From the NCBI GenBank assembly GCA_025041175.1, contig JAKCFJ010000004.1, positions 620,001 to 684,000 on the forward strand: a DNA stretch of 64,000 nt, written 5' to 3'. Position numbers and translations under genes: made by a program. Within the stretch, counting starts at the first letter, position 1. Each line of letters starts with the position of its first letter. Below are positions 3,046 through 52,701 of the stretch, piece after piece. The stretch is from Halobacteriales archaeon YIM A00010 (GTDB lineage: Archaea > Halobacteriota > Halobacteria > Halobacteriales > Haloarculaceae). The notes beneath the pieces were generated by a model. It did not search any database. It was not told the origin of the DNA and worked only from the letters and a program-made list of their open reading frames with translations.

Positions 3046-4194
3046 GTTTCAGAAGTACCAAGCTGGTGTTGAAGCGTTCCAGTTCCTGGAAAGCAGGGTA
3101 AAGCACGCCGAGTTTCAGAAGTACCAAGCTGGTGTTGAAGCGCGGAGAGTATCAGGAGCCCGGCATCTCAATGGAAACCTCGTTTCAGAAGTACCAAGCT
3201 GGTGTTGAAGCGCGTCCGGATCGAGCTCCCCGACGAGGACGAATCGGATAGTTTCAGAAGTACCAAGCTGGTGTTGAAGCTGCGTCTTCGATCTCCGGAT
3301 GGTCGAGCGTGATGCGCGTTTCAGAAGTACCAAGCTGGTGTTGAAGCCCCTTGCCCGCCGGCTTCGTGGGGGCAACGAGCGTGTTTCAGAAGTACCAAGC
3401 TGGTGTTGAAGCGGTGTCGGTGCACACAGTCATCATCGCACCTCCGAGTTTCAGAAGTACCAAGCTGGTGTTGAAGCAAGAACGCCGCCGAGGCGATTGA
3501 TCTGAATCGCTGGTTTCAGAAGTACCAAGCTGGTGTTGAAGCATGGACGATGTGGAGGAGATGGGGTACTACTCGCTGTTTCAGAAGTACCAAGCTGGTG
3601 TTGAAGCATGGACGATGTGGAGGAGATGGGGTACTACTCGCTGTTTCAGAAGTACCAAGCTGGTGTTGAAGCTTCTCGTGATCTCGACCGGCGATGAGTT
3701 CACGACAGTTTCAGAAGTACCAAGCTGGTGTTGAAGCTCCACAGTGTGGGCACGAACTCGTTCACTTCACCCTCGTTTCAGAAGTACCAAGCTGGTGTTG
3801 AAGCGATGTCTGGCATCAAAACACGCCCCCGTCGGACACCCGTTTCAGAAGTACCAAGCTGGTGTTGAAGCCCCCGTCTGGGGCGGCATCGTATTCGACT
3901 AACATCGTTTCAGAAGTACCAAGCTGGTGTTGAAGCGTTGCTTGAATTCCTTGGGGTGGCGATCCGGGTTCAAACGGTTTCAGAAGTACCAAGCTGGTGT
4001 TGAAGCCACGAAGGGCCACTTCCAACGCCGGCGACGGCTTGGTTTCAGAAGTACCAAGCTGGTGTTGAAGCACAATTTGATGTCTCTCCTACTACAATCC
4101 TTAGAGGTTTCAGAAGTACCAAGCTGGTGTTGAAGCCTGCGTACACGGCGGGTGACGTGGTCGAATACGACGACGGTTTCAGAAGTACCAAGCT
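3046..4194 (+). CRISPR. Type I-B CRISPR array, 17 full repeats plus a 19-base truncated one
   Basis: The 30-bp repeat begins GTTTCAGAAGTACC and ends GTTGAAGC, the haloarchaeal I-B type. Full repeats start at 3046, 3112, 3182, 3251, 3318, 3383, 3448, 3513, 3578, 3643, 3708, 3775, 3842, 3907, 3977, 4042 and 4107. An 18th copy (4176-4194) keeps only its first 19 bases. The 17 spacers are 35-40 bp. Spacers 8 (3543-3577) and 9 (3608-3642) are identical. The full repeats look invariant by eye, which suggests a maintained array. The leader-distal end is cut off by a recombinase remnant. Confidence 0.97.
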
Positions 4195-43451: not shown

Positions 43452-43928
43452 TCAGTAGGATTTGCTCGTCACAAGCGTTCCGGAGCCATCTTCGACGGTC
43501 ACCGTATCGCCCCCGTTATTCCAAATTGGCTGACTCGACCCCCAGTAGAGGTCGCTTGCTGAATCCGAGCCGCTCCCAGTGTGGAGTGTGAGTTCATTGC
43601 CCGGTTCAAGCATGACTCCATCTGGGACGGTGTATGTCGTCCCTGCACCATTGGCGACCATCCAGCCGCCCAGATCGAGGGGCTGTTCACCTATATTTTC
43701 GAAGGTAACGTACTCGTCGACGCGGTCGTCCCACTCTGCGTGAGGAACGTTATCGCGCGCGTCACGGAACAGGAGGGTCCCATCGTCGAATTCGAGCCAC
43801 ATTCGTGTGAGGCCACGGACGCAAGCGGAATAAGCAATGTTCCTCGAGTCGAATCGTATCGGTGCGACACGACGAGCCGGAAGGCGGGGTGCAGAAGTGT
43901 TCACAAGGAATGAACCGAGCGTGTACAC
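43452..43928 (-). CDS. Lamin-tail-domain protein, probably truncated
   Basis: The C-terminal ~100 residues form a lamin-tail domain: DEYVTFENIGEQPLDLGGWM, VANGAGTTYTVPDGVMLEPG, NELTLHTGSGSDSASDLYWG, IWNNGGDTVTVEDGSG. Haloarchaea use LTDs as extracellular modules attached to nucleases or hydrolases. The part before it (MWLEFDDGTLLFRDARDNVP) has no signal peptide or enzyme motif, and the frame's own start is unconvincing, so this is likely the surviving end of a larger secreted protein. Confidence 0.6.
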   Translation of the reverse strand: MYTLGSFLVNTSAPRLPARRVAPIRFDSRNIAYSACVRGLTRMWLEFDDGTLLFRDARDNVPHAEWDDRVDEYVTFENIGEQPLDLGGWMVANGAGTTYTVPDGVMLEPGNELTLHTGSGSDSASDLYWGSSQPIWNNGGDTVTVEDGSGTLVTSKSY

Positions 43929-44240
43929 CTTCTCTCAGCCACTAAAACATTGAATAGCAATAGATATAGCTTATTATTTAATTCATTCATAGGATTGAGA
44001 TACAGTTGAGCACACACACCTGATTCCGAGTTAGTCGGGTGATGAAGAGACAGAAGATAACCTAAGGCGCAACCGCTAACTCGGAATCAGGTGTGTTGCT
44101 TCTAGAGTCTAGGAACTAGAGAGATAGAGAAACAACGGGATAAGAGATGTCTGTAGAAAGACAGATTAAAACATCAACAGAAATGGGTGTAGTTTATTAT
44201 CCGAATTATCTATCGGATCTAACTCGGAATCGGGTGTGTA

Positions 44241-44848
44241 TCCCTGACCAGATAGCTGTATTGAATCACTAGACGCCAGTGTAGTGGGTTGATACATCAA
44301 ATATATCAAAGAGTGGGAAGAGAGAATGGTGAAGTGGATGAACGTAGTCTTCCGCTTCACCGAACCGGGAATACCGGAAAATCATCCTACCGTGTTTCGT
44401 CTCCGCTATCAAACGGTTTGTGATCTAGTGGGATCCTACAGCGATTCAACTGAAATCACAGGGTGTGGAAACCTCTTCTGCAACGAGTGCAGGTCGGCCG
44501 ACTGTTGTCTGATGGACCGGCAAGGAGGGAGTGAAGCACCCGTCTTTCCCACGTAAGCCCCACACATCCGAGAAACCTCCCCGGGCGATGGGCTTCAGAC
44601 GGGTCCGTGTGAGGAAATTCCCTCGGCGGTACGCGCCCATTGGCGCGTTACCGTCCCTCGTCGGACAGCGGTGGAATATCGGTGACGACAGCATGCATGG
44701 GGATGCGAGCAGATCCGCTCCGACGAGGTTTTAGTCGCTGGACCAGACAGGGCACAAGCTCCGCCCTCACAGAGGAAGGTCACGGGCAATCTCCAGAGTA
44801 CGGCGGGGTAGTTGACTAACAATCTATTCCATTGCAATCCCTTGATTA
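44241..44848. other. Spacer inside the origin with an IS605-type end-like segment
   Basis: A plus frame at 44326-44556 contains ITGCGNLFCNECRSADCCLM but has no recognisable fold. From about 44740, CACAAGCTCCGCCCTC ... GGCGGGGTAGTTGAC resembles the GC-hairpin right end of haloarchaeal IS200/IS605 elements, with about 30 extra bases in its loop. It may be an old insertion between the iterons. Confidence 0.3.
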
Positions 44849-45076
44849 CTAACTCGGAATCAGGTGTGTGTCTCAGCCGATGATGGAAGTTTCTGGTTAG
44901 GCCTTCTTCCCATCAAAATCTACCGAGATAGAATATTACCATGTGTGGGAGGTACACACCCACTAACTCGGAATCAGGTGTGTGTCTCAGCCGATGATGG
45001 AAGTTTCTGGTTGGGTCTTCTCCCCGTCAGAATCTACCGAGATAGAATATTACCATGTGTGGGAGGTACACACCTA
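44849..45076 (+). repeat. 114-bp tandem direct repeat carrying the iterons
   Basis: Units 44849-44962 and 44963-45076 are nearly identical (iteron, GTCTCAGCCGATGATGGAAG, then TACCGAGATAGAATATTACC, then GGGAGGTACACACC). They differ at only a few positions. Each unit carries one forward iteron and a short inverted match (GGTGTGT/ACACACC). Confidence 0.85.
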
Positions 45077-45194
45077 CTAACTCGGGATCAGGAGAGTATT
45101 GACCAGATTTAGAGTTACGTACGAAATCTCTGTACTCCAGGATTTTGGCGATTCTGGGGGATATCTAACTCGGGATCTAGTGACAACACTTTTT

Positions 45195-46466
45195 ATGAAG
45201 GCAGGTAATACGCGTGATATGCAGGAGAGTGGCGAAACGTCGACGGGCACCGGTGACGAACTCTTCCAGGCTGTCGACGAGAGTGGTGATCACACTATCT
45301 TCGCTAACCGAGAGCTACTCAACATCGACCACGTTCCAGACGAAACCCGAATCGTTGGTCGTGACGAACACATCAGGGATCTCGCTAACGAAGTGGGTCC
45401 TGCTGTAACAGGGGGCCCCCCGAACTCAGTGATTCTCTATGGCAAGACTGGATCCGGGAAATCACTCGTCGCGAACCACGTCATGGACCGGGCCCAGAAG
45501 GAAGCCCAGCGACGAGACACTCACTTGGCCACGGTGACTGTCGATTGCGCACAGGCGAAGGGGGAAGCTGATACCATCCAGTCGATTGCAGACGGGATCA
45601 ACCCACCCGAATCCGGCGTCAAGGTCCCAACCCGAGGAATATCGACAAACGAGTACTACAACCGGCTCTGGGAGATTCTCGACCGAGAATACGACGCCGC
45701 GCTTATTACGCTCGATGAGGTCGATCGACTGGATGATGATAACATACTCATGCTTCTTTCGCGTGCCCGGGAGGCCGAGAAGGTAGATGTACCGATTGGG
45801 ATCATCTCCATCTCAAACAAGGTTAACTTCCGCGATCAGATGACCGAACGGGTCAAAAGCAGCCTCGGGCACAACGAGTTCATTTTCGATCCGTATGATG
45901 GAGAGCAGCTACGACGGATTCTCAACAACCGGAAGGATGCCTTCAAGGAGGAGGTCCTGCATTCAGGCGTGATTCCCAAGACAGCGGCGCTGGCCGCCCA
46001 ACGTCACGGTGACGCCCGGAAGGCGATTCGTCTGTTGCGCCACGCAGGTGACTACGCCAAGAACAATGATCTCGACGAGGTAACGGAAGTCCATCTCGAT
46101 CTTGCCCAGGAACAGGCCGAAGGCGAACGGTTGAAAGAACTCATTGCCGGCCTTCCACCCCATAGCAAGTATCTCCTCTATGCATTGGCCAACCTCACCG
46201 CGAAAACCGCTGATGAGAGAGACTGGTTTCGAACGACTGTTATCTATGACGTGTACACGAAGGTCTGTGAGGCTGAGGGGACTGATGATCTGACAACGGA
46301 TACGATCCGGAGTCTGCTCAGCGAGCTTGCCTTTCTCGAAGTCACAGAGTCGAATCAGGAATACGGAGGCATGGGGAAGGGAACCTACAAGGAACACCGT
46401 CTTCTTTGGGAACCGAGCGTCGTCTTCAAAATGGATCCGGATCCCGCCCAGGTCGATGTGGACTAG
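45195..46466 (+). CDS. Orc1/Cdc6 replication initiator
   Basis: A 423-residue AAA+ ATPase plus wHTH. The ATG at 45195 was chosen; the frame runs upstream to a TTG at 45099, but that part overlaps the iterons. Walker A GKTGSGKSLVANHVM, Walker B ALITLDEVDRLDDDNILMLL, sensor 1 IGIISISNKVNF, sensor 2 region HGDARKAIRLLRHAG and a C-terminal winged helix (DDLTTDTIRSLLSELAFLEV) are all present. It binds origin boxes and loads MCM. Its own upstream iterons make it the likely cognate initiator of this replicon. Confidence 0.93.
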   Translation: MKAGNTRDMQESGETSTGTGDELFQAVDESGDHTIFANRELLNIDHVPDETRIVGRDEHIRDLANEVGPAVTGGPPNSVILYGKTGSGKSLVANHVMDRAQKEAQRRDTHLATVTVDCAQAKGEADTIQSIADGINPPESGVKVPTRGISTNEYYNRLWEILDREYDAALITLDEVDRLDDDNILMLLSRAREAEKVDVPIGIISISNKVNFRDQMTERVKSSLGHNEFIFDPYDGEQLRRILNNRKDAFKEEVLHSGVIPKTAALAAQRHGDARKAIRLLRHAGDYAKNNDLDEVTEVHLDLAQEQAEGERLKELIAGLPPHSKYLLYALANLTAKTADERDWFRTTVIYDVYTKVCEAEGTDDLTTDTIRSLLSELAFLEVTESNQEYGGMGKGTYKEHRLLWEPSVVFKMDPDPAQVDVD

Positions 46467-50835: not shown

Positions 50836-51528
50836 GGGAATCGATCTCGATCGGGGAGTGGCTGGGAGTTCCTACTGTCGGAGCGCTCGTTCTCGCGGCC
50901 GGTCAGTGATGGCTATATTTGGGGGTATACACACGCACTATTGTAATGGAAACGCGATTTGTTCAGATGTATCACGGCTATACATGATGTTTGTGATACG
51001 CAAATCAGATTTTACCGTTAGACGATGACAGTGATCACCTCGAAGCCATCTGAATCACGGTTCCAGGCATCCTCGCCGTTACAAACGTAGTATTGTAATG
51101 GGGTGTTATCCATCTACTTATTGTCCGGTCGATACCGACGCCCGCACTCATGTCCCTCTTTATTATCGGAACTACACAGCCAAATTGGACAGCAGGATGA
51201 TCGAGGGTGTGCTCGCCGATGAGATATTGAATCGTGAACCGGACCTCTGTGATCTCCGGATCACCAGTAGCCGAAACACGATAGAACCCTCCACACTGCA
51301 GCTTTCGAAACCTGTTTCCGACGAATCTGAGCGTCGGAGCGATGTGGACACCGGCGATCTGAAATCGCTCCCGTTCGATTCTGAGAGTGACATTGACTCC
51401 GAACTGTAACCCCGAAATGATGACTTCAAGCCGAACCAGGTCCTGTAGTCGCATCTCATCTCCAACGGCCAATCCCAGTCGCTATTCAGTTGTAAAGTAT
51501 ATCCACCTCCAGCGCAAACGGAGTGACA
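50836..51528. other. Intergenic region upstream of the second orc
   Basis: About 690 bases. Overlapping frames on both strands (51098-51409 plus; 51035-51472 and 51172-51465 minus) lack recognisable domains. The string TATTGTAATGG occurs twice (near 50939 and 51091). The 22-bp iterons of the first orc are not present here. AAAGTATATCC at about 51494-51504 may be the TATA box of the gene at 51529. Confidence 0.35.
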
Positions 51529-52701
51529 ATGAAACCCGGGACGATCGGCGTCGGAGATATGGAAGCCGTTTTCGAGAACGTGTCGCTATTGAGTACCGAA
51601 TTTATCCCCTCAACGGAGCGCATCGTCGGACAGGAAAATCAACTCGCCCTCCTCGACTATGCAATCAGCCCCCTGCTCTTCGACCAACCGTCAGACAATA
51701 TCCTCCTACGCGGTCCGCCTGGAACCGGAAAGTCGCTTTGTGCCTCGTATATCGCTCAGCGTGAGGTCGGTAGCTTGTTGGATAAAGGGATGTCAGCGAT
51801 CTGGGTTGACATCGACTGTCGACGGACGAGGACCGAGTCGCATTTGCTGCGTGTCATCGGACACAGCGTCCGCCAGCCAGAGAACGATCTATCGATTCCC
51901 GAACGGGGACTGAGCAAAGACGAGTACCGCGCCCGTCTTCGAGAGTATCTGAGCGACAACTTTGATGTGATCATTGTGATACTCAACGATGTCCACGTGC
52001 CACGGGACGAGGAACTCTCTGGCCTGCTGCGGACGCTGCGCGGCGTGGATGAATGTCTGGTCGGTCTTCTCGGCATCGCTAGGGATGTCCGCAACGGTGC
52101 GCCGACGATCGATACCGATCAGTGGGACCGGAAGTTCACGTACGACCCGTACAGTTGTGACATACTCCACGAGATACTCCGAGCACGTCTCGATGCATTC
52201 ACTCCCGGCGTCGTGGGAGATGATGTGCTTGATGAGGTCGTCGACCGCGCATCCGCGGATCGACCGAACGCGCGGCGGGGGATCGATCTCCTCCGCGTCA
52301 CTGGTATGGTAGTCGCTGCCGATGGCGCTGAACGGGCCGAACCATCCCACGTCGAACACGCGACGCTCCATGTCGATGGTGCACAGACCAGCGATTATCT
52401 GCGTGGACTCTCACTTCACTCGATTCTCCTTTTGTCGAGTCTCGCGACGGTGACGGGATTGAACGATTCCAACCCTCGGACATCCGAAATCTATTGCCAG
52501 TACGAAGTCGTCTGCGAGCGGCGCGGTGTCGATTCGCTTTCGAAGCGCCGCGTGCGGGACCTACTCCGGGAACACGAGTATCTCGGCCTCACGGACCGAT
52601 CCACGGTCAAGGGAGGAAGGGGGGAAGGAAACTACGGCGTCCACGAACTCCGACTAGATCCTGATCAGATAATCGACATCGTTGAGCATCGTCTCGACTA
52701 A
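51529..52701 (+). CDS. Divergent Orc1/Cdc6-family protein
   Basis: A 390-residue protein from the ATG at 51529; a GTG two codons earlier is possible. AAA+ core: Walker A RGPPGTGKSLCASYIA. The Walker B strand reads FDVIIVILNDVHVPRDEELS, with Asn-Asp where Asp-Glu is usual. Sensor 1 region VGLLGIARDVRNG; sensor 2 region RPNARRGIDLLRVTG. A C-terminal winged helix follows (VDSLSKRRVRDLLREHEYLG). Haloarchaea carry many such divergent Orc paralogues, often on plasmids. The altered Walker B suggests reduced ATP hydrolysis. Its stop overlaps the next small frame (TAATG). Confidence 0.88.
   Translation: MKPGTIGVGDMEAVFENVSLLSTEFIPSTERIVGQENQLALLDYAISPLLFDQPSDNILLRGPPGTGKSLCASYIAQREVGSLLDKGMSAIWVDIDCRRTRTESHLLRVIGHSVRQPENDLSIPERGLSKDEYRARLREYLSDNFDVIIVILNDVHVPRDEELSGLLRTLRGVDECLVGLLGIARDVRNGAPTIDTDQWDRKFTYDPYSCDILHEILRARLDAFTPGVVGDDVLDEVVDRASADRPNARRGIDLLRVTGMVVAADGAERAEPSHVEHATLHVDGAQTSDYLRGLSLHSILLLSSLATVTGLNDSNPRTSEIYCQYEVVCERRGVDSLSKRRVRDLLREHEYLGLTDRSTVKGGRGEGNYGVHELRLDPDQIIDIVEHRLD

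Follow-up and report, generated by a model that had tools for sequence, protein, structure and literature searches.

Does the array of repeated boxes in front of an orc1/cdc6 gene on contig C4 of Halobacteriales archaeon YIM A00010 mark a replication origin, and how does its box relate to the ORBs of other haloarchaea? The array was analysed within the window, a stretch of 64,000 nucleotides (C4:620001-684000) of the 5.97-Mb assembly, and was compared with related loci. We consider it highly likely that array and gene together form an origin of the 813-kb secondary replicon C4, fired by the adjacent Orc1/Cdc6; by its sequence it would very probably be a haloarchaeal megaplasmid origin whose boxes end in GTGTGTG and not in the usual G-run.

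The array comprises seven CTAACTCGGRATC boxes at 44013-45186, six direct and one inverted, upstream of the orc1/cdc6 gene, and all seven, as reported in a preliminary description of this DNA, are real and exact matches. The exact CTAACTCGGRATC cores are positioned at 44022 (minus strand), 44076, 44219, 44849, 44963, 45077 and 45165. The elements of the locus are:

43940..44000, no strand: second AT-rich stretch, outside box 1
44013..44034, minus strand: box 1, the inverted copy (CTAACTCGGAATCAGGTGTGTG), with a matching inverted box in relatives
44076..44097, plus strand: box 2, partner of box 1 in the inverted pair (the two starts 61 bp apart)
44100..44199, no strand: AT-rich DNA to the right of box 2, a candidate for the duplex-unwinding element (putative role)
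44102..44119, no strand: CTAG cluster right of box 2, three CTAG in 18 bp with a 7-bp period
44219..44240, plus strand: box 3
44245..44845, no strand: spacer between boxes 3 and 4, about 600 bp
44849..44870, plus strand: box 4, in copy 1 of a 114-bp duplication
44963..44984, plus strand: box 5, in copy 2 of the 114-bp duplication
45077..45098, plus strand: box 6, GGGATC variant, at -142 from the ATG
45099..45118 (about), minus strand: degenerate inverted box at -120, 6/19 mismatches, found at the same place in most relatives
45165..45186, plus strand: box 7, adjoining the promoter, -54 relative to the ATG
45190..45197, plus strand: TATA-like TTTTTATG, next to the end of box 7 and about 26 bp upstream of the ATG
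45219..46466, plus strand: orc1/cdc6 initiator gene, 415 aa, conserved ATG (TIGR02928, 1.8e-128)

Eight exact copies of the 13-mer core are present in the whole assembly (7 contigs), against a chance expectation of about 0.26; seven of the copies make up the array and the eighth is a lone copy on contig C6. The first five boxes carry the complete CTAACTCGGAATC[AG]GGTGTG, and boxes 6 and 7 are GGGATC variants with weaker, decayed tails. Boxes 4 and 5 are not independent, since both lie inside the tandem duplication (44848-44961 and 44962-45075, copies 95% identical). The spacer between boxes 3 and 4 is single-copy in the genome, is longer than in most relatives and is probably an insertion; this split, together with the decayed tails of the promoter-proximal boxes, may reflect ageing of the array. 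The boxes stop, as described before, at the start of the orc1/cdc6 gene: the last one ends 32 bp upstream of ATG 45219. Relatives share this start codon and not that of a longer TTG frame. The encoded protein contains the AAA, Cdc6_lid and Cdc6_C (winged-helix) domains and matches Orc1 structures (2qby_A, 3.4e-51; 2v1u_A, 1.2e-47). A T/A-rich element is found in relatives at the position of TTTTTATG, which is likely the orc promoter. The other side of the candidate origin is flanked by a gene for a lamin-tail-domain protein (43452-43928, minus strand).

The boxes had been said to surround AT-rich DNA, which was confirmed in part: 43950-44000 is about 76% AT and 44100-44200 is 60-70% AT, whereas 44450-44800, within the array, is GC-rich. 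Between boxes 1 and 2 the AT fraction is only 0.49, the AT-rich DNA being located instead to the right of box 2 and to the left of box 1. The cumulative GC skew of the whole 812,767-bp contig had no clear switch at the array and provided no usable signal.

We then compared the locus with those of close relatives (Orc 70-88% identical). Similar boxes, in most cases between six and nine of them, were present at 13/13 other intact loci (Halosimplex, four; Halocatena marina, two; Haloarcula amylovorans, Haloarcula sebkhae, Haloarcula marina, HArc-gm2, H-GB1-1, G138 and G154, with unclassified relatives among them), so that the check on the preliminary description, a search for the box beside close orc homologues (at least 70% Orc identity), came out in its favour; H. 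vallismortis was left out of this comparison, as its contig begins at the orc gene. The geometry is conserved as well. Including the window, a box is found at -139 to -145 (near -142) and another at -51 to -57 (near -54) from the start codon in 14/14 loci, and most relatives keep the degenerate inverted copy at -120. The distal inverted pair has a spacing of 60-62 bp in 12 of the 14 loci and of 106-109 bp in the other two, while its distance to the gene ranges from 0.3 to 2.3 kb; the flank to the right of box 2 exceeds the locus mean in AT content in all 14. Three Haloarcula loci of the same clade (L026, L064 and L065) have additional boxes just after the orc gene. In a survey of 391 Halobacteria genomes the box was recovered in 8/9 genomes that have an orc of at least 70% identity (the contig of the ninth starts at the gene) and in 4/382 others (Fisher P 3.5e-13). 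Boxes in genomes without a close orc are read as remnants: G301 has five clade-A boxes on a 111-kb contig (positions 5148-5636 of L054, which is from C7, and C7:89702-89929) with no intact orc beside them, and the same contig holds a C-terminal orc fragment (86% identical, a 113-aa open frame), so that its boxes could be those of an orphan origin or a remnant; G016 has a pair that resembles the downstream pair of L065, and G041 and G385 have scattered copies.

In Halosimplex the orc-box unit lies on contigs labelled chromosome (4.8 and 5.2 Mb), and in G154, a genome of genus g3, on a contig of 3.1 Mb; Haloarcula marina and Halocatena marina have it on complete plasmids, of 187 kb and 317 kb respectively. 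The array can thus not be called replicon-specific, as had been proposed, for the unit occurs elsewhere on chromosome-sized contigs and on plasmids alike. Among plasmid records, Orcs of more than 60% identity were found only in Halocatena marina and Haloarcula marina. A BLASTN search of plasmids with the origin DNA gave no match, as would be the case if conservation is limited to the boxes and their spacing. A viral source for the box was considered and rejected, the exact box being absent from the viral contig collection.

The Orcs of sister clades are about 50-57% identical and have position-matched boxes, in which the GGTGTGTG tail is identical and in register and the core differs by clade; these boxes are likewise placed before orc, and the 61-bp inverted pair is also found in clade B. 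The box patterns are:

Clade A (the window box): CTAACTCGGAATCaGGTGTGt
Clade B (plasmids of Haloarcula, among them pNG100 of H. marismortui): CTTACTCaAAAttnGGTGTGTg, also given as CTTACTCMAAAYYNGGTGTG
Clade C (Haloarcula CBA1115 type): GACTCCAAATCtGGTGTGT, also given as GGACTCCAAATCNGGTGTG
Clade D (several families): TTCACCGGAAACncGGTGTGtg, also given as TTCACCGGAAACNNGGTGTGTG

In the Orc tree, A and C form supported clades, as does the core of B. In cross-matching, the patterns of A and B are within 3 mismatches, and A boxes never fit the D pattern. Clade-D boxes were found with 28/30 sampled Orcs of the group of about 50% identity; Orcs at E 1e-98 or better occur in 278/391 genomes, the presence of D boxes being known only from the sample. 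A sister-type origin candidate is predicted in the same cell (L002, C3:597583-598722): its Orc is 50% identical, its boxes (TTCACCGGAAACNNGGTGTG) are exact clade-D boxes, and it has 8 CTAG per 100 bp.

The remark that the box has no G-rich string is true in a narrow sense, its tail GGTGTGTG containing no G-run; the consensus of 95 clade boxes reads GGTGTGT at the position where Wu et al. 2012 demanded the G-string. The broader claim, that the box is unlike known ORBs, had to be given up. Besides sharing its tail with the sister clades, the window box aligns with the ORB TAACAGCGGAAACAGTGGGGTGGGGGGGT of Wu et al. 2012 (shuffle p 0.003) and, within its own genome, with the G-tailed box of the orc L005 (p 0.005). 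It aligns also with the boxes TACACTCGGAACGAGGGGGG of a further, related Orc, L118 (G159:C31:1200-4800), which combine the same ACTCGGAA core with a classical G-string (0/5000 shuffles as good). These alignments place GGTGTGTG where other haloarchaea have the G-string. A reading of the box as a non-ORB iteron was dropped once the sister boxes had been found, and a literature search for the box core string found no occurrence in the papers searched. Judged from these comparisons, the box is a new family inside the known Orc/ORB scheme, with GT replacing the G-string; the new initiator-origin pairing that had been suggested is retained as an orc-linked origin candidate with its own box, and falls within the known Orc/ORB pairing. 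The G-string of H. hispanica oriC1 is essential, the origin being killed when it is mutated, and the AAA+ domain is believed to recognize it; against this background the change to GT is the detail of greatest interest in the box. It is an evenly balanced proposal that a large Orc1/Cdc6 clade reads the GTGTGTG tail and that the core is split into at least four specificities, which would provide natural orthogonal pairs, two of them (C4 and the C3 TTCACCGGAAAC-type) in one cell.

Besides the skew without a clear switch, the low AT content between boxes 1 and 2 and the signs of ageing, a further result counted against the origin reading: the fixed Orc differences between the box clades were not concentrated in the winged helix, those between A and D being spread evenly (winged helix 19/97, AAA base 44/205). 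At residues 378-391, probably the wing of the winged helix, the figure is 7/14 (nominal P 0.01), in a stretch that was chosen by eye and is a lead only.

C4 contains 3.4 times fewer CTAG than expected (895 vs 3057). Within 70 bp of the inverted pair, at least two CTAG are found in 12/14 loci, and the genome as a whole has 15 clusters (three CTAG within about 68 bp), six of which are located within 1.5 kb upstream of orc (binomial P 2e-11): C1:2341919, C2:45193, C2:872208, C3:212927, C3:599108 and C4:664102. Blow et al. 2016 (PMC4752239) reported such clusters upstream of haloarchaeal orc1/cdc6 and linked them to an orphan methyltransferase, and a PF01555 methyltransferase gene is encoded on C1. 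The cluster beside the inverted pair gives independent support to the origin call, and the six orc-upstream clusters directly chart the likely origins of four contigs. The clade-D origins, drawn mostly from other families, are mostly without a CTAG cluster; in Haloferax volcanii the CTAG density is raised at one origin only, and a strain without CTAG methylation has no growth defect.

The genome contains about 15 further orc matches, part of them fragments or weak. Three other orc loci are located on C4, at 36853 (truncated), 434607 and 671550, and no ORB-like array was found in those of their flanks that were analysed; the last (window 51523-52701) is 29% identical to the orc of the array and has no ORB-like array upstream. 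That an ORB-like array was found at only one of the four C4 orc loci speaks for an origin at this place. A scan of C4 for clustered 12-mers recovered solely the box array, a CRISPR array and one cluster at C4:588212, the latter consisting of four CTAGCCGACCTC 12-mers within 2 kb (C4:588212-590100) away from orc genes. The CRISPR array (window 3046-4190) contains the 30-bp repeat GTTTCAGAAGTACCAAGCTGGTGTTGAAGC in about 18 copies, separated by spacers of 35-40 bp, two adjacent spacers being identical.

The locus has two features expected of an archaeal Orc1/Cdc6 origin, an adjacent Orc1/Cdc6 with AAA+ and winged-helix domains and repeated ORBs with an inverted pair; its box sequence also tracks the Orc clade, as in a linkage of Orc families with ORB families. 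By its conserved pattern it is an Orc-specific, conserved origin candidate, neither replicon-specific nor alien to known ORBs. The mechanism that we infer from sequence, which extends to origin activity, Orc-box binding, the unwinding site, autorepression and the role of methylation, would run as follows. Each 22-bp box would be an ORB bound by the adjacent Orc, with the core (CTAACTCGGAAT) determining which initiator binds and the GGTGTGTG tail standing in for the haloarchaeal G-string. Boxes 1 and 2, the inverted pair, would be the loading site of the Orc, which would help to open the adjoining AT-rich stretch and recruit MCM, while the direct boxes would raise the local Orc concentration or titrate Orc; a similar modulation of dose has been suggested for the region rich in ORBs at H. 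hispanica oriC2 (PMC3936714). Orc bound to box 7 probably represses its own transcription, since that box abuts the orc promoter at a fixed distance, and the CTAG cluster may contribute a further control through methylation, of the kind suggested for other origins of haloarchaea.

Not every predicted haloarchaeal origin is active: of those predicted in H. hispanica, 2/7 are without ARS activity (PMC3528665). The array could be a true Orc/ORB unit that was acquired with a mobile segment and is a silent, dormant or backup origin while C4 replicates from elsewhere. Dormant orc-adjacent origins are documented in haloarchaea, the orc-box unit is found on chromosomes and plasmids, and C4 encodes other orc genes; yet among the C4 orc genes the one at the array alone has an ORB-like array, and it alone has a CTAG cluster a short way upstream, its Orc is intact and the box geometry is conserved, so that we regard dormancy as rather unlikely. 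The tested origins of H. hispanica depend on the neighbouring cdc6.

Less probable still is that the boxes are mainly an operator or titration array of the Orc (for autoregulation, copy or incompatibility control) and that replication starts elsewhere. The invariant distance of two boxes from the orc promoter would agree with this, as would the boxes downstream of orc in some relatives and the ORB-rich region of H. hispanica oriC2, which is without origin activity and thought to titrate Cdc6E (PMC3936714), but an operator fails to explain a conserved distal inverted pair with an AT-rich flank and a CTAG cluster, up to 2.3 kb from the gene. Finally, the boxes could bind a different protein, a partition or transcription factor, and be located beside orc by accident. 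The ParA gene downstream of orc in Halocatena marina points in that direction; the box core, however, tracks the Orc clade across the class and the boxes align with known ORBs, which makes this explanation very improbable. The preferred reading is that of an active origin fired by its adjacent Orc.

The GT-tailed box class suggests that the published G-string rule is not general, and origin surveys that demand G-runs may therefore miss members. The survey of Wu et al. 2012 (PMC3528665) accepted G-string boxes only and yet lists an origin on pNG100, so that some GT-tailed boxes have probably been counted already. The aligned box-Orc pairs can be used for finding which residues read which bases: as the four core types are aligned and the Orcs are about 50% identical, initiator specificity is directly testable by swaps in laboratory haloarchaea, and a swap of the tail GGTGTGTG to GGGGGGGG on box A would bear on whether GT replaces the G-string.

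Of the known systems, the haloarchaeal origins of Wu et al. 2012 (PMC3528665) and Wu et al. 2013 (PMC3936714) share with the window locus the repeated boxes and inverted pair upstream of orc1/cdc6, an Orc-family-specific box and an occurrence on chromosomes and megaplasmids; the tail is different, the window having GGTGTGTG where the survey (PMC3528665) required a G-string. The sister GT-tailed boxes share tail and placement, but differ at core positions, and their Orcs are only about 50-57% identical. Like H. hispanica oriC2/oriC2D (PMC3936714), the family has multiple ORBs around one cdc6, with downstream boxes in L026, L064 and L065, whereas the window locus is without downstream boxes. With the clusters of Blow et al. 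2016 the locus shares the position of CTAG upstream of orc, a feature that five more orc loci of its own genome also have, and it differs from them in that the window cluster adjoins an inverted ORB pair.
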